NCBI GenBank assembly: GCA_038373885.1
Contig: JAWZYV010019520.1
Coordinates: 372,001 to 436,000, forward strand
Length of the DNA stretch: 64,000 nt
Source: Cheiracanthium punctorium
Lineage: Eukaryota; Arthropoda; Arachnida; Araneae; Cheiracanthiidae
Direction of reading: 5' to 3'
Numbering within the stretch: position 1 is the stretch's first letter; each line of letters begins with the position of its first letter. The position numbers and the translations under genes are program-made. Of this stretch, positions 5,205 through 40,396 are shown piece by piece. The notes beneath the pieces are model-generated. The model was not told where the DNA came from and ran no database searches. It worked only from the letters and a program-made list of their open reading frames with translations.

Positions 5205-5525
5205 AGTGTGTTTAGGGCAAACCTCCACATCAGGTATCTGCAGAAGGTGGGGTGCCTTGGGAAGAGGACTTTTTAAAGGGTTCTAATGCTCATGGGCGAG
5301 GGGACACATCCCTCCAATATTTTGCCTTACTAATGATAAAATTTTAATGATGATTGAGAAAAAAGAGCATGTTTTGTTCTCCACCCCCTCCCCTCCACAA
5401 TAATCAGCAGCTTGCGATGCTTATGTTAATTTATGTGACATATGGAGAAAACCACCCGAAACGCCAGAGCATTAGATCAACAGCCATGCGGTTAGCCAGA
5501 GAACCACTTCAGCCATCTATCATTT
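5205..5525 (-). repeat. SINE copy with internal insertion
   Basis: GGGCAAACCTCCACATCAGG ... GGGTGCCTTGGGAAGAGGAC ... GGAGAAAACCACCCGAAACG ... GCATTAGATCAACAGCC follow the same order as the SINE at 40,165-40,396. The copy is interrupted at about 5,300-5,430 by unrelated pyrimidine-rich sequence. The short open frame across it is accidental. Confidence 0.6.
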
Positions 5526-16863: not shown

Positions 16864-18261
16864 CACTCTATAAGAAAAAAATCGACGCACCAAGAAACTC
16901 ATCCGATTGCTTTGAAATTTCGTATGCATGAATGTTTTGAACAGATATGCAAATGATTCAAATTTGGTGTCCAATGAATGAATAGTTTGATCTCTAGCGC
17001 ATCGGAACTGCGCATCCAGCAGACGTATATAAGGAGCAGTTCTTCAACGGTTGTTAAAACTTTCTGTTTGATTGCGATTCAGATGACCTTTCAACAACTT
17101 AAAAAATGCCTCGCTTCAGGATTCGTGCTCATTACGAGCAACTGTCAGAGTTTGACAGAGGTCGTATCATTGGATTGAAAGAGGCCGGTTGGACTAATCA
17201 GAGAATCGCTCCTCATTTGAGTCGAAGCGATGCGACGATTCGAAGATGCTGGCAAGGATGGGTGGAAAATGGCAGAGTGCAGCGTCAGGATGGTAGCGGT
17301 CGACCTAGGGCTACAACAGATCGTGAGGACAGAGTGATGGACCGATCAGCTGTCACAACGCCTTCTTCATCTCTATCAACCATCAGACGTTCAACCCAAA
17401 CACTAGTGTCCATCATGACCATTCACAGACGGTTGAGAGAACGAAATCTACGCTCGCGCCGACCGTTATGCCACCTGCCACTCACGCCTGCACACTGCCG
17501 AGCCAGATTACAGAGGTGCAGGGCTCGATCAGGTTGGAATGATGCCGACTGGGGACGTAAAGTCTTTAGCGACGAGTCCCGCTTCCAACTGTGTCCTGAC
17601 GATCATCGAAGGCGTGTTTGGAGACGCACAGGGCAGAGGGGGGATCCTGCTTTCACTATTGCACGCCACACCGGCCCTCAACAAGGCATTATGGTCTGGG
17701 GTGCCATTTCCTTTGACAGCCGGACCCCTTTGGTCGTCATTAGAGGTACACTTACTGCACAGCGGTACGTGGACGACATCCTAAGACCTGTTTTGCTACC
17801 GTTCCTTTTGCAGTGCCCTGGGCTGGTTTTTCAGCAGGACAATGCCAGACCACATACGGCTCGCGTTGCTCTTAACTGTCTGCAAGCTTCTCAAACTCTT
17901 CCTTGGCCTTCCAGATCGCCAGATCTCTCTCCCATCGAGCATGTCTGGGATATGATGGGAAGGCGATTGCATCTGGCACGGACTGTTGATGACCTCGTTC
18001 GACAATTGGAGCGAATTTGGCAGGAAATACCGCAGGAGACCATCCGGGAGCTTTATCGGTCTATGCCACGCCGTGTGGCAGCTTGTATCCAGGCTAGCGG
18101 CGGGTCAACACCTTATTGAACTACTGTAACTCTGAAATAAATTATTCAATTGTTCTGAAATTTTAATCATTTACTATTCTGTACATTGTCTTCCTATCCA
18201 GCAATTTTCGTCTCAATCGGACACCCCCTTCTTGGTACGTCGATTTATTTGTTATAGAGTG
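16864..18261 (+). mobile_element. Full-length Tc1-like transposon, 1,398 bp
   Basis: TA dinucleotides flank both sides (16,862-16,863 and 18,262-18,263). The ends are inverted repeats of about 33 bp: CACTCTATAAGAAAAAAATC, then GACGCACCAAGAA, on the left; CACTCTATAACAAATAAATC, then GACGTACCAAGAA, on the right (reverse complement). The single open frame fills most of the interior. With both ends, TA duplication and an unbroken frame, this is a young copy that could be autonomous. Confidence 0.93.
17106..18119 (+). CDS. Tc1-like transposase, intact 337-residue frame
   Basis: The enzyme would bind its own element ends, excise it and reinsert it at TA sites in the nucleus. The N-terminal region (about residues 13-56) is a helix-turn-helix of the kind that reads the ends. 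A GRPR AT-hook-like motif sits at 65-68, and a second basic helix-turn-helix spans about 85-120. The catalytic triad is visible: D156 in FSDESRF, D245 in QQDNARPH and E278 in SPDLSPIEH. 32 residues separate D245 and E278, against 34 in standard Tc1 enzymes. The length is normal and there are no stops. The start lies about 240 bp inside the left end. AATAAA follows the stop at 18,136-18,141. From memory the C-terminal half resembles transposases abundant in spider genomes. Confidence 0.95.
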   Translation: MPRFRIRAHYEQLSEFDRGRIIGLKEAGWTNQRIAPHLSRSDATIRRCWQGWVENGRVQRQDGSGRPRATTDREDRVMDRSAVTTPSSSLSTIRRSTQTLVSIMTIHRRLRERNLRSRRPLCHLPLTPAHCRARLQRCRARSGWNDADWGRKVFSDESRFQLCPDDHRRRVWRRTGQRGDPAFTIARHTGPQQGIMVWGAISFDSRTPLVVIRGTLTAQRYVDDILRPVLLPFLLQCPGLVFQQDNARPHTARVALNCLQASQTLPWPSRSPDLSPIEHVWDMMGRRLHLARTVDDLVRQLERIWQEIPQETIRELYRSMPRRVAACIQASGGSTPY

Positions 18262-21196: not shown

Positions 21197-21210
21197 CTTT
21201 TTTTGTTTAA

Positions 21211-22229
21211 GCATCACGTACAAACGACTGAAGCGATTGAAATGAATTTGAGTGTCATGATAGGTAGTCACTCAACTTAAAACATAGGCGTCGAATTTTT
21301 AAAAAATCTTGATTAGATTTTGAGATTTTGTGAAAATCCTTTCAAACTGCGTAAATTTGTGTTCGAGCATCACGTATCAACGACTGAAGCGATTGAAATG
21401 AAATTTGGTATCATCATTGGTGGTCACTCAACTTAAACATTAGGCAGCGTATTTTTAAAAAGATCTTGATTAGATTTTCAGATTTTGCGAAAATCGTTTC
21501 AAACTCCTTAAAATTGTGTTCGAGCATCACATAAAAACGACTGAAGTGAATGAAATGAAATTGGTTGTCACGATAAGTGGTCACTCAACTTAAAACATTG
21601 TCGTCGAATTTTTAAAAAATCTTCATTAGATTTTGACATTTTGCGAAAATTGTTTCAAACTGCGTAAATTTGCGTTCGCGCATCACGTAATAACTGCAAA
21701 GGTGAAACAATGGTATTTGGTGAAATGATAGATGGTCACCTTAAACTATAAGCATCTAAAAAAAAAAATCGATCATATTTTGGGATTTTGCGAAAATCGT
21801 TTCAAACTGAGTGAATTTTTGTTCACGCAGTACGTAATAACGACTAAAGCGAATGATATGAAATTTGGTCACATGATAGGTTGTTGCTCAACATAAAGTA
21901 TAGGTGTCTAATTTTTTGAATATTTTTATTAGATTTTGAGATTTTGTGAAAATTCTCCAAAAAATCTGCTTCATTTCTTCAAGCATCGCGTAATAACGAC
22001 TAATACGAAATTTGGTGATATGATATAGGTTGTTACTAATCTTAATTTATAGGTGTTGAGAGAATTTTTAAAATATTTTGATTACATTTTGAGATTTTGT
22101 GAAAATCGTTTTAAAATGCTGAAATTTTTGTTCCAGCATCACGAAATAAAGACTGCAGGGAATGAAACGAAATTGGGTGGCAGGATAGGTTGTCACTCAA
22201 CTTAAATTCTAGTCTTCCAATTTTTCAAA
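21211..22229. repeat. 156-bp tandem array in the Helitron, left part
   Basis: Units begin with GCATCACGTAA-like sequence at about 21,211, 21,367, 21,524, 21,680, 21,827, 21,983 and 22,136, a spacing of 147-157 bp. Each holds a GAAATTTGGT-type block and a GATTAGATTTTGAGATTTTG-type block. An eighth unit start is at 33,791, beyond the nested insertion. Confidence 0.85.
22224..22229 (+). repeat. 6-bp target site duplication, left copy
   Basis: TTCAAA immediately precedes the left arm of the palindromic element and is repeated immediately after the right arm at 33,723-33,728. Confidence 0.85.
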
Positions 22230-22414
22230 AGTAGGGAAGAAAGGAGAGTTCTGCTCATGCGGTGCCATGTTAATTCTGCGGTGCTGCCTGGATGAGTGCG
22301 TTCCCTATGCTGAGCGGGGAAGGGGGGCGTGGTCGGACCGGATGTTGAGATCGGATGCTAAGACCGGATGTTCAAAGGACTGATAAGAATTTTTTTCCTT
22401 TTTTTTCAAATAAG

Positions 22415-22600
22415 GGGACTTGTAATTTTTTTCAGATTGTGACATATTTTTCAAATAAGGGGACTTGTAATTTTTTCAGACTTTAAGATATTTCTGAAAT
22501 AAGAGGACTTGGAAAAAATTTTCAGATTGCGATGCATTCTCTCATGAAAAATAAGGGACTTTAACATTTAGTATCAAAATAAGAGACTTTGACATAATTT
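22415..22600. repeat. Tandem repeat in left arm, about 45 bp x 4
   Basis: Repeats of CAAATAAGGGGACTTGTAAT followed by TTTTTTCAGATTGTGACATA. Later units degenerate. The inverted copy is at about 33,352-33,537. Confidence 0.7.
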
Positions 22601-23149
22601 TAAATAAGCTATATGAATTAAACCTGAAATAAAAAATATTATTATAAAATGAGGACCCACCAGCCGCCCGGTAGAACGTCTACCGCCTCATTTCAAATAA
22701 AAATTCTTACTGTGCCTTTCCCCATCACGCTAGCCTCGCATGAATGGAGACAGGGCGTAGCACAGAGGATGCGTTGTTGTTTTTGTTTCTTTAAATAATA
22801 ATTAACTATGTGGAGCAAAGAAATGAACAACATCCCCAGGAGGATTTAGTTTTCTTTACCATTTAATAATAGAACCAATGCAAATTGAATAAATGCTGCT
22901 TAATACATACTTCTAATTTTTGTATACCGTTTAAGATTATAGCATATATTTAATAAGTAACAGTTTACTAGAATATTAAAGTAGGGTTTAGGATACCCAT
23001 ACATTTTCTACAAATTTCTTGTACTGTTAGGGAAGTGAGAAAATTATACCATAGAACGATTTTAGTACCTATAGTTTTTACAAATAATGATTTAGATAGT
23101 GTATGAACTTTTTTATCTAAACATTTTTTTTCTTAAGAGATTTTTACCC

Positions 23150-23455
23150 AAGTTTTAATTTTAAGTTAAATAAGTAATTTTACAACAAATATTTTTTTAA
23201 CCAACAGTTTTAATTTTAAGTTAAATAATTTTACAACAAATATTTTTTAAATTAATTTTACAACAAATATTTTTTAATCAAGAGTTAATTAATTTTTTAA
23301 CCAAGTTTTAATTTTAAGTTACTAATTAATTTTACAACAAATATTTTTTTTAACCAAGTTTTAATTTTAAGTTATATAATTTTACAACAAATATTTTTTA
23401 ATCAAGTGTTTTTAATTTATCAAGAAAAAAAATTTAATCAAGTGTTTTAATTTTT
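23150..23455. repeat. AT-rich tandem repeat in left arm
   Basis: Five or six units built from AACCAAGTTTTAATTTTAAG and TTTTACAACAAATATTTTTT. The inverted copy is at about 32,497-32,802. Confidence 0.75.
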
Positions 23456-23619
23456 TGTATACCGTATTTTTGTTAAGTAGCCGTTTAACATTAAAGTAAG
23501 GTTTAGGATACCCATACATTTTCTACAAATTTAATCTACTGTTAGGCAAGTGAGAAAATTATACCATAGAAAGATTTTACAAATAATGATTTGGATATAG
23601 TCTTAGATTCTGTTGCGAG

Positions 23620-23775
23620 AAAACCACTTTAGCCATATATCCCAAAAAACTCAAGTTTTTGTATACGAAATGCATGAATACGCGTTAGATCCCCTTAGAA
23701 AGTTCTCCTTCCAAGGCACCCCTCATCCTAGGCAGATACCCCCGCGTGCAGGTTTGCCTTAAAACACAAACAAAC
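23620..23775 (+). repeat. SINE fragment in left arm
   Basis: GATTCTGTTGCGAGAAAACC, GCGTTAGATCCCCTTAGAAA, CCTTCCAAGGCACCCCTCAT and GTGCAGGTTTGCC match the SINE family seen at 40,165-40,396 and 58,790-59,031. The same fragment is mirrored at about 32,178-32,332, so it was in the arm before the arms were duplicated or was copied by conversion. Confidence 0.65.
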
Positions 23776-26329
23776 AAAGTATTTATCTAAACATTTTTTC
23801 TTACCCACACATTTCTGATAGATTTTAGGCAGCGATTATACTAGTTTATATTTTCTATAGATCAATTAGAGAAAAAATTACATTTTTAGTAATCCTACAA
23901 AATATTTTTACTGTATATCACAAGTAGTATAACTTGATTTATAGAATTTCAATACGATACGAGTTAGATTATTTATGTGCAACACTCATTTCACTTTGAC
24001 TATGAAAGCATAATTTTATACATGAATCAACCTTTTTAGAGGTATGCACTTAACCTATTTTATAGAAAGGTGAGCATAACTAGCACAAACTTTTAAACTA
24101 GATAGTACTATTGTTAGAAAGTTGAACTATTGGAAATAAAAATTGAAGATCCGTTTTAGCACAGTTGTATACTGCATGTACATAAAATATCTTTCAATAC
24201 TTAGATAGTTTTAATCGCAAATCATTACTTGAACTAAAAAATACAAGGTTTTTACTTACGTGAAGCCACATCTTGCGAAATCTTCTAGTCTCTGGACAAA
24301 GTACCAACATCCATACGGCTAGCAAGTACGAAAAATAGAGTAATGATTTAAAATACATTAACTCTAAGTTCCGTCCCAGCTGACCAATATCAAGACATTA
24401 CTTCTTTTTGTCTTCATATGCTGAAATAGGTATATTATTTTGACACTAAAAACAAAACACATTTGAAGATATTAAACGCTTTAAAAGTAGTTTTTTTTTT
24501 TTTCTTATAACAATTTACCAGATTCATAATACTATTTTATGTAGGATAAAATTAGTTAGCAAGCGAAAATTTAATCTTAGTTAGAATTTACTGAAATACA
24601 AATACCATGCATGCCTTATTTTCTATTAGGAGAAAGCCCTCAAACCCCAGTTTTTTTATACAAACTGCATAAAGTACTTCTACCGATAATGCTATTAATA
24701 TTAATTACACTGGATTACCAACTTAAAATTTCGCAAAACACCAAAATACAGAAAAACATACATTAACAGTAACCAAAAAAAAAAAAAATCACACTTAAAA
24801 GTACAACACATCAAAAGTGGAAAATATAATTACCACATAATTATTTTCAATTAGAATTACGGTATAAACTTATATGTAACTAAAATAATAGAAAATATTA
24901 CACTTAACCTGTACTTGTACACGCGAGAGGCGAAAATAATAAAAATACTCACATAATTAACAAAAGAATGATTGAAGTAAAATCCACGTGCATATCCCTA
25001 GTACAGCTGATAAGAAATTTAGAGATAAGAAAGTGCCTTGAGGCTCTACAGAGCCGGCTAAATAACAGTAGGCCAGTTTGCCGATAAGATAAAACCAGGG
25101 AGGGTGCTAGGGGAATACCGAATTGTGGGGACACGTGTTTCATTCTACGTTCAAAAATGGGGACTTATGGATTAAGATGTTTACTACTTAAAAACATAAT
25201 CTAATTTTTACAAACGCATTGGAACTTTGTAAAGGATATCTATTGAACACGTATTAAATACATTATGATTATTCTTCTGATCGACATTATATCCTAAATT
25301 AAAATATCAAAGTTAAGCTACAACGATTAATATATTTTACGTAGTTTAGGAAACTAATGAATCATTAAATTAATTTCTGTGAAACAATTAGCAAAGATCA
25401 TTATACTAAAGCAAATTATTTTTGTTAAGTTTTGATAAATAACAGTAATAAATTATAGGCATTGCAGATGAATGAGTATTCACGTATAAAATAGGTATTA
25501 AAATTATTGTTTAAAACAATTTTTAGAATAATAAACTAAAATTTTTATTTAATAAAGTCATAAACTAAAATTATTAATGAAAACTTGTTAATAAATTAAA
25601 CATATCAAAATTTTTACACTCAGTATTTTTATATACTTAAATTTTACAAAGATATCCTTTTAATAAATGCATAAACTAAAACAATTTTTACAATAATAAA
25701 CTAAAATTTTTATTTAATAAAGTCATAAACTGAAATTATTAATGAAAACCTGTTAATAAATTAAACTGATTACTCTAAAAGATAGCTAATCACAACATAT
25801 ATCAGAAAAAATATAAGCAATTATAATACCTGAAAAATACCGGACAACACTCTTGTTACATGCGGACAAAACATCTGTTTGCACGGCTAAAGAATTCTTA
25901 GGTGCCCGTAGCAGGAGACCTTACCTACGCCCAACCTACAAACTCTACAAATTTAACGGCAACTGGTTTTCTCTTATCAGGTATCACAGATCAGATAAGA
26001 GATAAGGAAGTGACATGCGCAGAAGACACCTGATAGTGACGTGTGCAAATCTATGTTGATTGAATATCCGCTAGGTTCGTTGGCAGGATGTACATTGAGT
26101 GGCAACTCTCTGTAACAGGCTAATACAAGTTAGATGATGTAATATCTACTGGGTTGAGAAAGTTTTAAGGTAGAGGGCGCTTGGGTAATCACGTGATTTT
26201 TTTTAAAGAACCAGTAAAGACATTTTAGTTAGATAAAATGGCCAGGTGTGTGTTGCGAGACTCCCTTTGCACTGTGTGCGCCTATACTTAAGACGTGTGT
26301 TTTAATTGATTTTTCGCCGAGTTTCAAAA

Positions 26330-26452
26330 ATGTCTTTGCTTGAATCAATTGAAAATAACTTTAACATTCAATACACTCCCGAGTTTTATACTCAAAGTGA
26401 TGCGGATGTGTTGCTGCAAGAAATAATACAATTGCCTATATCAAAGTTGTAA
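26330..26452 (+). pseudogene. Mirrored 5' fragment of the central gene, 40 codons
   Basis: ATG at 26,330 opens the same first 36 codons as the central gene. The mirror ends at 26,437, and the frame then runs four more codons into the spacer and stops at 26,450-26,452. The upstream sequence (CTATACTTAAGACGTGTG and TTCGCCGAGTTTCAAAA before the ATG) is identical to that of the real gene, so the same promoter should fire here on the plus strand. The product would be a 40-residue peptide lacking every recognised domain. It is best read as a by-product of the inverted duplication, not as a gene with its own job. Confidence 0.8.
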
Positions 26453-28074
26453 CTACTAAAAAGAAATAAACAAATTAATATATTATTTAAAAATATTTGA
26501 TATTACTTAAAAATATTACAACTTTGATAATTTTTAAGAACGGTATTTAAAAATATTTCCAAGCATGTTTAGCAAGTTACTAGCTTGCTATTTGTAAAAA
26601 ATTCTAAGTCCGTTATCTTGCAAGAGTAACTAAAATGTACTAAGTTGCATAATTCAATGTTTTTAAAAAGACAATTTCACATATCTAGCACTTCAGAAAA
26701 AATGTATCAAGTTCGTAACATTCGAAAAATACCAAAGTTCAACACTTCAATAAAATTTTCAAAGTACAGATCTGTTAGTTTATTTAAAGAACATATTCAA
26801 CGACTTATCAGAACATAAAATATACCAATGTGCAAAACTTCTAAAAGAAAAAAAATTACAACTTACAATCTATTAATGCAGTTTACTAAGTATTTTGTAA
26901 AATCCTTTACTTGATAATTCTGAAAAATAGTCTAAGTCTCTCACTTTGTATAGGCATAAATTATATTACTTTTAATTAGTTAAGGTTTACATAAAGATAA
27001 GTTTATACATCTATGCTAAAATAACTGATTATTTCTATACCAAATTTAAATCCATTTTATTAAAAACATGTTAAGCATACTACTTCTACAAAATGTACAA
27101 AGTTCTAATAGCTAAGTTCCTTTCGAGAAATAATTTCATAACTTATGAGAACTCATAAACGTCTGCAAATCAAAAGTATACTTAGTTTGAACAAGTAACA
27201 TGTATAAAAGTAAGAGCATATTTATTTAAAATTTGTAAGCATAACCATCTTAATCAGTAAAATGTGTAACATGTGCACTTAGTTGATATTTCTTATAAAA
27301 ATATTCAAGCCCATTACTTAATAAAAATATGCTAAGTTAATACTCTGATGTTTTAAAAACATAGTGTTTGATTTAAAATATTCTGTTACTTCAAGTAAAA
27401 TGTGGTAAGATCTTTACATTAAAGAATACCTCAAAAAATCTTTATTTAAAAATACTAAGTTTCTTTATCTCACTTAACTTTATTTTGAAAAACCTGTAAA
27501 ATCGATTGAGTTATAAAATTATGCAGACAAACTTTTTTAGCTAAGTTCATTTTATAAAAAATTAGTACTTTGTGAATTCTCAGGTAATGCAGTTTTACCT
27601 ATCACACTTAAGTTTATGATTTTAATCAAAACATTTTATTTCTATGTAGTAGATTAATGTTTCCATAGTACATGCTTCGATAAAATTTGTTAAATTTGTA
27701 ACTTTTTACCTTGTAGTGTATAAAAAAGATAAGTATAACATGAGAATCTTAAAACATGTCTAACTTTACCACTTTTTGCTTCAGTAAAATTTCATAGATT
27801 TTTATTTTGCAAGTAATCAACACACACATACACATAAAGAAAACACAGAAAAGTTTTCATATTTAAACTTATTTATTTACAAAAATATATTTTAAATTAC
27901 ACAAACTATTTACACAATTAAGAAAATAATAACTTTTCAATGAGTATTCTATAACTAAGCATGCACAAGTCAGTAAAATCTTACTGTTGTAGAAGCAATC
28001 ATGTCTTTTCCACATAATCACAATGGTTTTAATATGTTTTTTACAATCGCAATACTAGTTATACACCAATAACG
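26438..28074. other. Central spacer, AT-rich, degenerate short repeats
   Basis: No frame of note. The stretch is unique to the centre of the palindrome. Loosely repeated blocks such as ACTTC, AAAATGTAC, AAGTTC and GTAAC recur every 30-40 bp, suggesting an old decayed minisatellite. On the minus strand it would form the 3' flank of the central gene. Confidence 0.5.
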
Positions 28075-29623
28075 TCACATAATTACACATGTTTTGTCAT
28101 CCTTGGAATTAGCAAAATATGAAAACGGTTGAAAAAATGAATTAAATAGCTCATTTTGAAGATACTTCATATAGTCTTCAATGAAAATGTTTGAAAAAAA
28201 TTCTCCGTCATAATGACAAGTGCATTTGTTCTCGCATATCTCTCTTGCAATATACGGCATGTCAACCGTAAACCATGCTTTACTACTTATAAGACCCTCT
28301 CGCTCATCAATATGTGTTCTATTCGAACAGGCATGTATCCTTTGCGAAGAATGATCCTGAACCCGGCGTATGTTTTTAAAAATTTCCTGATGTACTATAT
28401 CCATTAATTGTTGTTTCGCCTCATCATAATTACAATGGGGTTCACAGTTACATTTTCGCGGCTTTAATTTTAAAATTAAATGAGGTAGGGTCGTCGTATA
28501 TAGCGTTTTTAAAATGCATTCCAATATTTCATTTCTCATTTCGCAAAGTTTTAATACTTGATCATTTAAATGTGTTAAGGAAATTGGATTTAACGTAAAT
28601 GAATCTCCGGTTTTGTAAATTTGTTGTAAGATGCATTTTCCATCATCATTAAATACAGATAATTGATTATTACAAATAAAAGAGCTATTGTTATGACATA
28701 TATTAAAATCTAATAGTTTTACAATAAATTCGATCCATGTGGAAGGGTTCATCACGACTCCCTGACCGGTTGGTATATAGTCTAATTGGACATTCTGAAT
28801 AAATTGTCTAATATGGATCTTCAAGTCAGTTCTTTCATCGTGAAGTGAAACGTAGATAAGTCTTTCCAAGTGCCATGTACTATTTACAGAAGCATATAAG
28901 CTATGGTAAAGATCGTCCGTCCAATTGTCCAACTTTGCCCTTTTCGGGGAAGGCTCATAAATGTACATTTTGGCAAATGTAAGGTTAATGTGCGGGTCTG
29001 TCACATAAGGTTCAGAAGGAATACCATGCGTTAAAAGTTTGTTGGTTGGGGGATATATCTTACACATTGAGCCATGTTCTAATTTAATGGTAGCGGTTTC
29101 ACAGTTCGCTGGTTTAAAATCCAAAGTTCGTTTAGATCCAAAACTTAGAATGCATACACCTGATGATAGATCTAGATTAAAATCTTCGTAGTTGCCGTCT
29201 TCAATTTTAGGTTGTTCTTCAGAGCCAAAGTTCACTTGCACCATATTAAATTCATAATTTGTCACTTTCTGTAGATCTTCACGTATTTTTTGCAAAATGG
29301 GTATCCAAGAGTAAACAGAGACTGTTGCTCCAGGTAAACTGTAATTGATTCCTTCATCAGCAAAAGTAATTACTTTACGAGTCAAGGAAATTTTCTTTTC
29401 ACTACTTTGCAGGGGTAATTGAAACAATTCTTGCTGTAATACATCAACATCACTTTCAGTATAAAACTCGGGGGGAAATTTTCTTTTCAATGCTTTGCAA
29501 AGGCTTTACATCTAAAGGCAATTGTATTATTTCTTGCAGCAACACATCCGCATCACTTTGAGTATAAAACTCGGGAGTGTATTGAATGTTAAAGTTATTT
29601 TCAATTGATTCAAGCAAAGACAT
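28075..29623 (-). CDS. ALKBH2-like pseudoenzyme with PC4-like segment, frame broken once near its N terminus
   Basis: The main open part is 28,075-29,490 (471 codons from a TTG). The likely true ATG is at 29,621-29,623 inside the right arm; the two frames are offset by one base across a six-C run. Numbering on the 471-codon part, residues 20-175 follow ALKBH2-type DNA dioxygenases: SWIPILQKI, FNMVQVNF, ILSFGSKRTLDF, LEHGSMCKI, LLTHGIP, HINLTFAKM. The usual HxD iron motif is replaced (G99, Y101) and only H155 of the ligands remains. Both co-substrate arginines are changed (H167, A173), so catalysis is unlikely. PKRAKLD at 182-188 resembles a nuclear signal. Residues 205-262 resemble the PC4 single-stranded-DNA-binding domain (IHIRQF...PTGQGVVMNPSTW). 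The rest has Cys/His clusters (346-353, 419-426). Role unknown; nucleic-acid binding is my inference. Confidence 0.7.
29470..29475 (-). other. Six-base C run where the reading frame shifts
   Basis: On the coding strand the upstream frame enters the run after an AAA ATT codon pair and stops at TAC TGA. The downstream frame reads through for 471 codons. A one-base length difference in the run separates them. This may be a mutation, a sequencing or assembly error, or slippage; the sequence alone cannot tell. Confidence 0.75.
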
Positions 29624-32600
29624 TTTTGAAACTCGGCGAAAAATCAATTAAAACACACGTCTTAAGTATAGGCGCACACAGTGCAAAGGGAGTCTCGCAA
29701 CACACACCTGGCCATTTTATCTAACTAAAATGTCTTTACTGGTTCTTTAAAAAAAATCACGTGATTACCCAAGCGCCCTCTACCTTAAAACTTTCTCAAC
29801 CCAGTAGATATTACATCATCTAACTTGTATTAGCCTATTACAGAGAGTTGCCACTCAATGTACATCCTGCCAACGAACCTAGCGGATATTCAATCAACAT
29901 AGATTTGCACACGTCACTATCAGGTGTCTTCTGCGCATGTCACTTCCTTATCTCTTATCTGATCTGTGATACCTGATAAGAGAAAACCAGTTGCCGTTAA
30001 ATTTGTAGAGTTTGTAGGTTGGGCGTAGGTAAGGTCTCCTGCTACGGGCACCTAAGAATTCTTTAGCCGTGCAAACAGATGTTTTGTCCGCATGCAACAA
30101 GAGTGTTGTCCGGTATTTTTCAGGTATTATAATTGCTTATATTTTTTCTGATATATGTTGTGATTAGCTATCTTTTAGAGTAATCAGTTTAATTTATTAA
30201 CAGGTTTTCATTAATAAATTCAGTTTATGACTTTATTAAATAAAAATTTTAGTTTATTATTGTAAAAATTGTTTTAGTTTATGCATTTATTAAAAGGATA
30301 TCTTTGTAAAATTTAAGTATATAAAAATACTGAGTGTAAAAATTTTGATATGTTTAATTTATTAACAAGTTTTCATTAATAATTTTAGTTTATGACTTTA
30401 TTAAATAAAAATTTTAGTTTATTATTCTAAAAATTGTTTTAAACAATAATTTTAATACCTATTTTATACGTGAATACTCATTCATCTGCAATGCCTATAA
30501 TTTATTACTGTTATTTATCAAAACTTAACAAAAATAATTTGCTTTAGTATAATGATCTTTGCTAATTGTTTCACAGAAATTAATTTAATGATTCATTAGT
30601 TTCCTAAACTACGTAAAATATATTAATCGTTGTAGCTTAACTTTGATATTTTAATTTAGGATATAATGTCGATCAGAAGAATAATCATAATGTATTTAAT
30701 ACGTGTTCAATAGATATCCTTTACAAAGTTCCAATGCGTTTGTAAAAATTAGATTATGTTTTTAAGTAGTAAACATCTTAATCCATAAGTCCCCATTTTT
30801 GAACGTAGAATGAAACACGTGTCCCCACAATTCGGTATTCCCCTAGCACCCTCCCTGGTTTTATCTTATCGGCAAACTGGCCTACTGTTATTTAGCCGGC
30901 TCTGTAGAGCCTCAAGGCACTTTCTTATCTCTAAATTTCTTATCAGCTGTACTAGGGATATGCACGTGGATTTTACTTCAATCATTCTTTTGTTAATTAT
31001 GTGAGTATTTTTATTAGTTTCGCCTCTCGCGTGTACAAGTACAGGTTAAGTGTAATATTTTTTATTATTTTAGTTACATATAAGTTTATACCGTAATTCT
31101 AATTGAAAATAATTATGTGGTAATTATATTTTCCACTTTTGATGTGTTGTACTTTTAAGTGTGATTTTTTTTTTTTTTGGTTACTGTTAATGTATGTTTT
31201 TCTGTATTTTGGTGTTTTGCGAAATTTTAAGTTGGTAATCCAGTGTAATTAATATTAATAGCATTATCGGTAGAAGTACTTTATGCAGTTTGTATAAAAA
31301 AACTGGGGTTTGAGGGCTTTCTCCTAATAGAAAATAAGGCATGCATGGTATTTGTATTTCAGTAAATTCTAACTAAGATTAAATTTTCGCTTGCTAACTA
31401 ATTTTATCCTACATAAAATAGTATTGTGAATCTGGTAAATTGTTATAAGAAAAAAAAAAACTACTTTTAAAGCGTTTAATATCTTCAAATGTGTTTTGTT
31501 TTTAGTGTCAAAATAATATACCTATTTCAGCATATGAAGACAAAAAGAAGTAATGTCTTGATATTGGTCAGCTGGGACGGAACTTAGAGTTAATGTATTT
31601 TAAATCATTACTCTATTTTTCGTACTTGCTAGCCGTATGGATGTTGGTACTTTGTCCAGAGACTAGAAGATTTCGCAAGATGTGGCTTCACGTAAGTAAA
31701 AACCTTGTATTTTTTAGTTCAAGTAATGATTTGCGATTAAAACTATCTAAGTATTGAAAGATATTTTATGTACATGCAGTATACAACTGTGCTAAAACGG
31801 ATCTTCAATTTTTATTTCCAATAGTTCAACTTTCTAACAATAGTACTATCTAGTTTAAAAGTTTGTGCTAGTTATGCTCACCTTTCTATAAAATAGGTTA
31901 AGTGCATACCTCTAAAAAGGTTGATTCATGTATAAAATTATGCTTTCATAGTCAAAGTGAAATGAGTGTTGCACATAAATAATCTAACTCGTATCGTATT
32001 GAAATTCTATAAATCAAGTTATACTACTTGTGATATACAGTAAAAATATTTTGTAGGATTACTAAAAATGTAATTTTTTCTCTAATTGATCTATAGAAAA
32101 TATAAACTAGTATAATCGCTGCCTAAAATCTATCAGAAATGTGTGGGTAAGAAAAAATGTTTAGATAAATACTTTGTTTGTTTGTGTTTTAAGGCAAACC
32201 TGCACGCGGGGGTATCTGCCTAGGATGAGGGGTGCCTTGGAAGGAGGACTTTCTAAGGGGATCTAACGCGTATTCATGCATTTCGTATACAAAAACTTGA
32301 GTTTTTTGGGATATATGGCTAAAGTGGTTTTCTCGCAACAGAATCTAAGACTATATCCAAATCATTATTTGTAAAATCTTTCTATGGTATAATTTTCTCA
32401 CTTGCCTAACAGTAGATTAAATTTGTAGAAAATGTATGGGTATCCTAAACCTTACTTTAATGTTAAACGGCTACTTAACAAAAATACGGTATACAAAAAA
32501 TTAAAACACTTGATTAAATTTTTTTTCTTGATAAATTAAAAACACTTGATTAAAAAATATTTGTTGTAAAATTATATAACTTAAAATTAAAACTTGGTTA

Positions 32601-33722
32601 AAAAAAATATTTGTTGTAAAATTAATTAGTAACTTAAAATTAAAACTTGGTTAAAAAATTAATTAACTCTTGATTAAAAAATATTTGTTGTAAAATTAAT
32701 TTAAAAAATATTTGTTGTAAAATTATTTAACTTAAAATTAAAACTGTTGGTTAAAAAAATATTTGTTGTAAAATTACTTATTTAACTTAAAATTAAAACT
32801 TGGGTAAAAATCTCTTAAGAAAAAAAAATGTTTAGATAAAAAAGTTCATACACTATCTAAATCATTATTTGTAAAAACTATAGGTACTAAAATCGTTCTA
32901 TGGTATAATTTTCTCACTTCCCTAACAGTACAAGAAATTTGTAGAAAATGTATGGGTATCCTAAACCCTACTTTAATATTCTAGTAAACTGTTACTTATT
33001 AAATATATGCTATAATCTTAAACGGTATACAAAAATTAGAAGTATGTATTAAGCAGCATTTATTCAATTTGCATTGGTTCTATTATTAAATGGTAAAGAA
33101 AACTAAATCCTCCTGGGGATGTTGTTCATTTCTTTGCTCCACATAGTTAATTATTATTTAAAGAAACAAAAACAACAACGCATCCTCTGTGCTACGCCCT
33201 GTCTCCATTCATGCGAGGCTAGCGTGATGGGGAAAGGCACAGTAAGAATTTTTATTTGAAATGAGGCGGTAGACGTTCTACCGGGCGGCTGGTGGGTCCT
33301 CATTTTATAATAATATTTTTTATTTCAGGTTTAATTCATATAGCTTATTTAAAATTATGTCAAAGTCTCTTATTTTGATACTAAATGTTAAAGTCCCTTA
33401 TTTTTCATGAGAGAATGCATCGCAATCTGAAAATTTTTTCCAAGTCCTCTTATTTCAGAAATATCTTAAAGTCTGAAAAAATTACAAGTCCCCTTATTTG
33501 AAAAATATGTCACAATCTGAAAAAAATTACAAGTCCCCTTATTTGAAAAAAAAGGAAAAAAATTCTTATCAGTCCTTTGAACATCCGGTCTTAGCATCCG
33601 ATCTCAACATCCGGTCCGACCACGCCCCCCTTCCCCGCTCAGCATAGGGAACGCACTCATCCAGGCAGCACCGCAGAATTAACATGGCACCGCATGAGCA
33701 GAACTCTCCTTTCTTCCCTACT
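29516..33722 (-). repeat. Right 4.2-kb inverted arm
   Basis: Inverted copy of 22,230-26,437, with isolated substitutions (for example near 29,836, 30,093 and 31,016). It carries the real start of the central gene at its inner end. Mirrored tandem repeats and SINE fragment lie at about 33,352-33,537, 32,497-32,802 and 32,178-32,332. Confidence 0.9.
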
Positions 33723-40164: not shown

Positions 40165-40396
40165 TGATTTGTGTGAATATGGCAAAGCTACGCTAGGGAG
40201 ATCTGCCAAGGATGGGAGTGCCTTGGTAGGAGGACTTTCTAAGGAGTTCTAACGCATATTCACGTTACATCTGGAGAAAACCTACCAAAACTCCAGACCG
40301 TTAGATCGACAACCGCGCTATACGACCCGAAATCGGGACCTTCACACTTCGACCGTCTACCAATTTCAGTGACATAACCACTGTGCCATGGTGAGG
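40165..40396 (-). repeat. tRNA-derived SINE copy
   Basis: On the minus strand it begins TGGCACAGTGGTTATGTCAC, with a perfect pol III A-box core (TGGCACAGTGG), and has a degenerate B box. It continues with the shared body AACGGTCTGGAGTTTTGGTA, AACGTGAATATGCGTTAGAA and CCTACCAAGGCACTCCCATC. This is the fullest copy of the family, which also occurs at 5,205, 23,620, 32,178 and 58,790. Confidence 0.7.

Follow-up and report, generated by a model that had tools for sequence, protein, structure and literature searches.

Palindromic elements resembling non-autonomous Polinton derivatives form a large family in the genome of the spider Cheiracanthium punctorium

Foldback and Galileo elements are characterized by a target-site duplication of 7-9 base pairs (bp) and a P- or Mutator-type transposase. 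Polinton/Maverick elements, according to PMC8097293, carry an (AGT)2//(ACT)2 or (AG)3//(CT)3 end motif and are flanked by 6-bp duplications. We analysed a 64,000-bp stretch of the C. punctorium genome (contig JAWZYV010019520.1, positions 372,001 to 436,000, hereafter the window, whose own numbering is used below), which contains at 22230-33722 an element with two long inverted arms. A sequence-only reading of this locus had described 4.2-kilobase (kb) inverted arms with AGT..ACT ends and TTCAAA on both sides, as well as a 3.1-kb centre with one long gene, and these features were all reproduced, the arms being 99.74% identical with scattered differences and the spacer of 3,072 bp holding a frame of 476 amino acids (aa). 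Comparison with relatives in the same genome showed that complete members of the family are inverted dimers of 13-16 kb built from a unit of about 7 kb, that this palindromic family is large and of high copy number, and that the window copy is a deletion derivative of such an end-to-end palindrome. Probably the family is a high-copy palindromic satellite of Polintons, which would be moved in trans and whose arms would be equalised through a snap-back hairpin.

The genome searched (2.53 Gb) is the one from which the window comes. When 300 bases of the outer arm were used as the query, the 40 scored of 1,912 first-look candidates yielded 49 matches, which included, beyond the window's own pair, six +/- pairs lying 13-16 kb apart. 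Ten relatives were retrieved, of which eight were readable at both ends, while two (L023 and L024) ran off contig ends and were excluded. The search for full copies with different flanks and 6-bp duplications, which the sequence-only reading had proposed, was successful in that all eight relatives are of this kind, with perfect flanking duplications GCCGTT, AACGTA, TATTTT, CAAATA, TCTGAG, AACACT, GTTGTT and TGCGTC. All eight have AGTAG..CTACT ends, beginning with AGTAGT in seven and with AGTAGG in one; the window end, also AGTAGG, is likewise one base off the (AGT)2 motif. Because the eight relatives at other sites agree, the duplication can be set at 6 bp with AGT..ACT ends.

The relatives are 13,325 to 16,251 bp long. 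In all eight, most of the window's spacer sequence is present twice in opposite orientation, and the halves pair from the ends toward the middle, apart from insertions and deletions in one half; the element is thus an end-to-end palindrome with two mirror copies of its gene, whose 3' ends face each other (tail to tail). Examples of such differences are C15102, in which part of one half near the centre is absent, C5415, in which a transposase-like frame (Tc1-like by eye) is inserted in one half, and C11106, which has additional DNA in one half. Each unit of about 7 kb consists of the end, about 4 kb without long frames, a gene encoding an AlkB part joined to a PC4-like part (AlkB-PC4), its 3' flank and a short asymmetric core, after which the mirror image follows. 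The core surrounds the dyad and is asymmetric over about 45 bp on each side; in a comparison of eight centres (window included, C10394 left out), one core half was recognisable by eye in seven and the other half directly in four, the centre of C3973 being different from those of the other elements compared. A protein search of the genome, window included, placed the best 89 gene hits of 4,107 first-look candidates on 68 contigs; 81 of these 89 contained no stop within the match and at least 21 tail-to-tail gene pairs with gaps of 1.1-3.3 kb were found among them, these counts being lower bounds from a best-hit list biased toward good copies.

The window copy departs from this plan by a deletion (Table 1). 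Its halves measure 4,255 bp on the left and 7,238 bp on the right, and its reduced size results from the deletion of about 2.98 kb, with one gene copy, from the left half, so that what appears as an arm terminates within the gene. The idea that the arms had grown to three quarters of the element's length was therefore not borne out, and the single gene in the centre holds for the window copy and not for the family. The absence of one gene copy means either that the palindrome decays by internal deletion after insertion or that one copy is dispensable. When the flanks are joined without the element and with one TTCAAA, the left-hand satellite unit continues, which restores the empty site. In the window copy alone the duplication could be 2, 4, 6 or 8 bp (CA, TCAA, TTCAAA or TTTCAAAA) with the element end shifted, because ends and flanks are locally symmetrical. 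A chance origin of the window palindrome is excluded by the length of its arms. Near-perfect palindromes are a known hazard of assembly, and a folded-back contig could in principle give such a structure, but the occurrence at nine sites with different flanks and perfect duplications, the scattered arm differences, the asymmetric core and the empty site that restores the satellite period make an artefact negligibly probable. Two repeats were also seen within the arms: a module of about 127 bp is doubled within each arm around an AT-rich array (22938-23064 and 23458-23579, with their mirror), and a stretch of about 95 bp present in both arms (23675-23770 and its mirror) recurs at 40168-40262 and 5206-5289 with about 77-81% identity, and may be a short dispersed repeat inserted into the arms.

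The arms of each element were found to be more alike than arms of different elements. When 18 arms were placed in a tree, each arm grouped with its partner from the same element in all nine elements, with a support of only 0.57 for the C11106 pair and no support value for the identical C15102 arms. Arm identity was 92.7% to 100% within elements in comparison to 89.7% to 96.2% between elements (144 comparisons, ungapped columns), and in eight of the nine elements the within-element value was above the highest between-element value. The outer 4.2-4.3 kb were 100.0% identical over ungapped columns in two of the nine, C15102 and C10394, and the C10394 arms show gaps and mismatches when the halves are aligned. 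The higher identity within elements indicates that arms are equalised inside each element, up to but excluding the core, and a self-complementary strand folded on itself would give this pattern, as its stem could be repaired or copied and its loop could not. The arms of the same family could be kept alike as well if, once inserted, they underwent ordinary gene conversion within the chromosome and no snap-back intermediate was involved, and we take this explanation seriously while leaning somewhat against it. Long inverted repeats convert readily, the arm identity is variable (92.7% to 100%) and an asymmetric core is expected under conversion too; on the other hand, conversion would need to act on nearly all copies, and C15102 carries 6,088 bp of arm that are identical and gap-free, with 100.0% in the outer arms of two of nine elements, whereas elements differ from each other by about 4-10%.

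The only long frame in the window element, the 476-aa frame, is open at 28075-29505 on the minus strand, and the N-terminal part of the gene (29506-29623, mostly within the right arm) lies in a different frame. Among the 16 gene copies of the eight relatives, ten have a single 515-aa frame, and the other six are broken, shortened or of different length. By sequence, the best solved relative of the encoded protein is ALKBH2 (expectation value (E) 7e-17 alone and 3e-26 as a two-sequence profile); the AlkB part is followed by a weak PC4-like stretch and then by a C-terminal region of the protein's own. The sole relative found among about 5.8 billion proteins, in a search which covered only similar-length relatives sharing short exact words, was P0001, a 471-aa protein with 53% identity on a 1,963-bp contig, and searches of viral contigs with the gene and with a 19-base end gave no result. 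At its N-terminus the intact gene contains about 36 codons duplicated in tandem and since diverged (PEFYTQSD.. / PEFYTESD..), a feature that P0001 lacks. The C-terminus reads KTCVIM in the window copy (28078 region) and in all six intact relatives aligned (L009, L014, L016, L017, L019 and L021), and not in P0001; we take it to resemble a CaaX prenylation box.

An active AlkB-type dioxygenase that depends on 2-oxoglutarate (2OG) and Fe(II) has an HxD...H metal site and a 2OG-binding arginine. In the six intact palindromic proteins aligned, the HxD motif invariably reads GNY (HKY in P0001), and, with residues mapped onto ALKBH2, both arginines are gone and the distal histidine is retained. Because the HxD motif and both arginines are lost, the palindromic protein is unlikely to be an active demethylase. 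The ratio of nonsynonymous to synonymous substitution rates (dN/dS) was 0.03 to 0.40 over 41 between-element pairs (10 intact copies from 6 elements), which are non-independent as they share copies, and the gene is by this measure under purifying selection. Such selection on the protein across copies implies a role in the spread of the element, and with its membership in a Polinton gene family, described below, the gene is not a random passenger.

A profile search of the genome with PF03175 gave 34 matches over the cut-off, and two of the loci, C1077 and C6745 (79-85 bits), were measured as complete Polintons. The C1077 Polinton is 14,410 bp long, is bounded by AGTAGAGGGG..CCCCTCTACT and the duplication ATCGCC, and has terminal repeats of 543 aligned bp; it encodes an integrase (E 4.6e-12), an A32/IVa2-type ATPase and a weak match to an adenovirus-type protease, below the cut-off. 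An ALKBH2-like frame with HKD intact lies about 0.6 kb inside its left end, and a PC4 protein near its right end (E 2.7e-6, over the cut-off) matches P0001 over 230 aa at 20% identity (E 3e-5). A PC4-AlkB fusion considered in C1077 was rejected, since the two genes lie apart, one near each end. A stand-alone ALKBH2-like frame near one end is a feature of Polintons of the C1077 type (L027:3264-3764, L031:3456-4037), and in the C1077 copy the match breaks off at a run of lysines encoded by an A tract. The C6745 Polinton is 15,332 bp long, with AGTAGTGAG.. at its boundary, the duplication GTTAAA and terminal repeats of about 165 bp, and it encodes an integrase (E 1.2e-12), a protease and an ATPase. 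It also encodes an AlkB-PC4 fusion of 480 aa in which HRD and the two arginines are present and whose PC4 part reaches E 0.009, below the Pfam cut-off. This fusion matches P0001 at 39% over 475 aa (E 1e-114) and the palindromic protein at 34% (E 3e-90), a similarity which places the palindromic gene in a gene family found in Polintons. A third locus, C11358, read over its left part, has a AGTAGTGGGG end together with an ALKBH2-like frame. The frames scored as DNA_pol_B_2 (L029:1-1935 and L033:2-2023) returned no polymerase family when their pieces were scanned against Pfam and PHROGs, and they are perhaps very divergent polymerases lost by the scan filters.

The region C6745:149100-170740 (L034/L032/L033) consists of this Polinton, with its AlkB-PC4 and integrase genes, inserted in the arm of a palindromic element. 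An apparent terminal match of 1.25 kb between the C6745 right flank and palindromic ends had pointed to terminal DNA shared by the two kinds of element; this was rejected, as the Polinton has its own ends and GTTAAA and is nested in that arm.

Palindromes and measured Polintons thus share AGTAG ends and a 6-bp duplication, and one Polinton has a related AlkB-PC4 gene. The earlier suggestion of a non-autonomous element with Polinton-type ends and 6-bp duplication gained support from the eight relatives, from the Maverick motif given in PMC8097293 and from the Polintons in the same genome. The palindromes showed neither an integrase nor a polymerase frame: the window element has no other frame of at least 80 aa, and the eight relatives have no frame of at least 120 aa besides the gene, except for the transposase-like frame inserted in C5415. 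Genes for capsid, protease and packaging ATPase were likewise not found in the same frame lists, and a tblastn search with Polinton frames of at least 110 aa (L027, L029, L031 and L032) against six palindrome pieces and the window half matched the AlkB-PC4 gene region only. The palindromic element is therefore not a Polinton in the strict sense; it works as a non-autonomous derivative of Polintons would, and its form resembles that of a snap-back defective genome.

Two other sources of mobility were weighed against these results. One is a different DDE transposase making 6-bp duplications, the AlkB-PC4 gene having been captured from a Polinton. This would agree with the lack of an integrase or polymerase frame in the element and with a similarity to the ends of the Polintons compared that consists of AGTAG and the duplication length only, but the (AGT)2 motif with a 6-bp duplication is a Maverick feature according to PMC8097293 and occurs also in C1077 and C6745, and the family of the selected gene occurs in a Polinton; we consider this explanation rather improbable. 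The other is cut-and-paste transposition of the Foldback or Galileo type, the terminal repeats having expanded. The long inverted arms and the repeats inside them would suit it, Galileo and Foldback having unusually long terminal inverted repeats; in contrast, the duplication is 6 bp in all eight relatives in comparison to 7-9 bp for those families, no element-encoded transposase frame of at least 120 aa is present in the eight relatives, and members of the family are palindromes over their whole length that carry a Polinton-type gene, so that such an origin seems highly improbable.

We therefore favour, with moderate confidence, a palindromic Polinton satellite moved in trans with arms equalised by snap-back. 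A Polinton integrase would act in trans on the element, leaving the 6-bp duplication at the AGT ends, and the protein-primed DNA polymerase B (PolB) of a Polinton would replicate it from its two identical ends. A displaced or excised single strand, being self-complementary, would snap back into a hairpin of about 7 kb with a short loop, and repair or copying of this hairpin would make both arms equal, while the core would stay asymmetric because it cannot pair in the hairpin. The element's protein, with its AlkB site lost and its PC4-like part kept, may bind single-stranded element DNA and would not repair alkylated bases. The dimer size (13.3-16.3 kb) is near that of the two measured Polintons (14.4 and 15.3 kb), which would, speculatively, fit packaging. 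A wider proposal, which we put forward tentatively and believe somewhat more easily wrong than right, is that of an obligately palindromic DNA satellite of about 14 kb of an animal Polinton, replicated by snap-back through the Polinton polymerase, inserted by the Polinton integrase, perhaps packaged in the Polinton capsid because the dimer matches the Polinton genome length, and retaining one neutered AlkB-PC4 gene of Polinton origin, in mirror duplicate, whose product would be its own replication or hijacking protein.

Several results weigh against the favoured satellite explanation. Ordinary gene conversion could equalise the arms, and the C11106 arms are only 92.7% alike, inside the between-element range. 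A match at the DNA level of Polinton ends to palindromic ends, including a full Polinton with terminal repeats matching AGTAGGGAAGAAAGGAGAG as the sequence-only reading had envisaged, was not found among the three Polinton ends compared, most PF03175 loci being unread. When these three ends were compared with nine palindromic ends beyond the first six bases (bases 7-40), 26 of the 27 comparisons were no better than shuffles at 1%, the exception (C6745 against C3973) being reached by 6 of 1000 shuffles, and terminal similarity beyond AGTAG was rejected accordingly. C6745 is not a recent parent of the palindromes, because the AlkB-PC4 genes are only 34% identical. The PF03175 profile search is the sole source of the PolB assignment in these Polintons, and Pfam and PHROGs scans of PolB frame pieces at C6745 and C1077 found no polymerase, a result which slightly lowers our confidence. 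The PC4 stretch of the palindromic proteins scanned reached E 0.03 to 0.16 in Pfam, below the cut-off, and E 0.005 as a PDB profile, and the structure prediction of the protein, with a predicted local distance difference test (pLDDT) score of 30, was set aside.

Long palindromes are usually unstable, and here a successful family is built as one, with arms in concert and a gene that selection maintains. If the wider proposal is true, the element would be a virophage-like parasite of a transposon-virus, present in high copy number in the host genome. Two questions become testable: whether animal Polintons replicate by protein-primed strand displacement, a process to which a snap-back satellite would testify directly, and whether Polintons sustain parasites in the way that large viruses sustain virophages. 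In addition, the presence in a Polinton of an AlkB that has the canonical motif and is linked to a PC4-like part suggests care of single-stranded DNA during Polinton replication. No palindromic Polinton satellite appeared among the matches listed in the open-licence PubMed Central literature, as represented by titles and the starts of abstracts.

Table 1. Features of the window copy and its flanks (positions in the window)
Feature	Position	Strand	Size	Remarks
Whole element	22230-33722		11,493 bp	AGTAGGG..CCCTACT ends; deletion derivative of an end-to-end palindrome of 13-16 kb
Left arm	22230-26440	+	4.21 kb	
Right arm	29513-33722	-	4.21 kb	
Spacer	26441-29512		3,072 bp	Single long frame inside
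AlkB-PC4 gene, surviving copy	28075-29623	-		Intact 515-aa versions in relatives
Remnant of lost left gene copy	26330-26440	+		Start codon and first codons; ends at deletion joint; from sequence and translation; relatives have the left copy
Deletion joint	26440/26441			About 2,983 bp of left half lost
Central dyad of palindrome	26439-26529			About 71% self-complementary
Left target-site duplication TTCAAA	22224-22229			From sequence; 6-bp length set by 8/8 relatives
Right target-site duplication TTCAAA	33723-33728			From sequence
Tandem satellite	21210-22206		Unit about 156 bp	Left flank; repeat resumes past right end, giving the empty site

Elsewhere in the window, an open frame of 338 aa at 17103-18119 (+) resembles a transposase of the Tc1/mariner type.

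In comparison with known systems, the palindromic elements share with Polinton/Maverick elements the 6-bp duplications, the AGTAG..CTACT ends, a similar total length and the homologous AlkB-PC4 gene of C6745, and differ from them in having no integrase, polymerase, protease or ATPase frames, in the loss of the AlkB site, and in being palindromic end to end, in comparison to terminal repeats of about 165 bp in C6745 and 543 bp in C1077. They resemble Foldback, Galileo and Tetris elements in their very long inverted repeats, internal repetition and strands capable of folding back, but they have 6-bp duplications, their repeat extends over the entire element and takes in a conserved gene, and no transposase frame was seen. 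With regard to the protein, ALKBH2 among the ALKBH2-type dioxygenases is its best solved relative by sequence, whereas the HxD motif and both arginines, which are present in the C6745 protein, are missing from it and it is joined to a PC4-like part. The snap-back defective-interfering or satellite genomes of DNA viruses, such as the adeno-associated virus (AAV) snapback genomes of PMC8235507, share with the palindromes the inverted dimer, the self-complementary strand and a proposed dependence on a helper; the palindromes differ from them in being integrated with target duplications at many sites of a 2.5-Gb genome and in carrying a gene that is under purifying selection.

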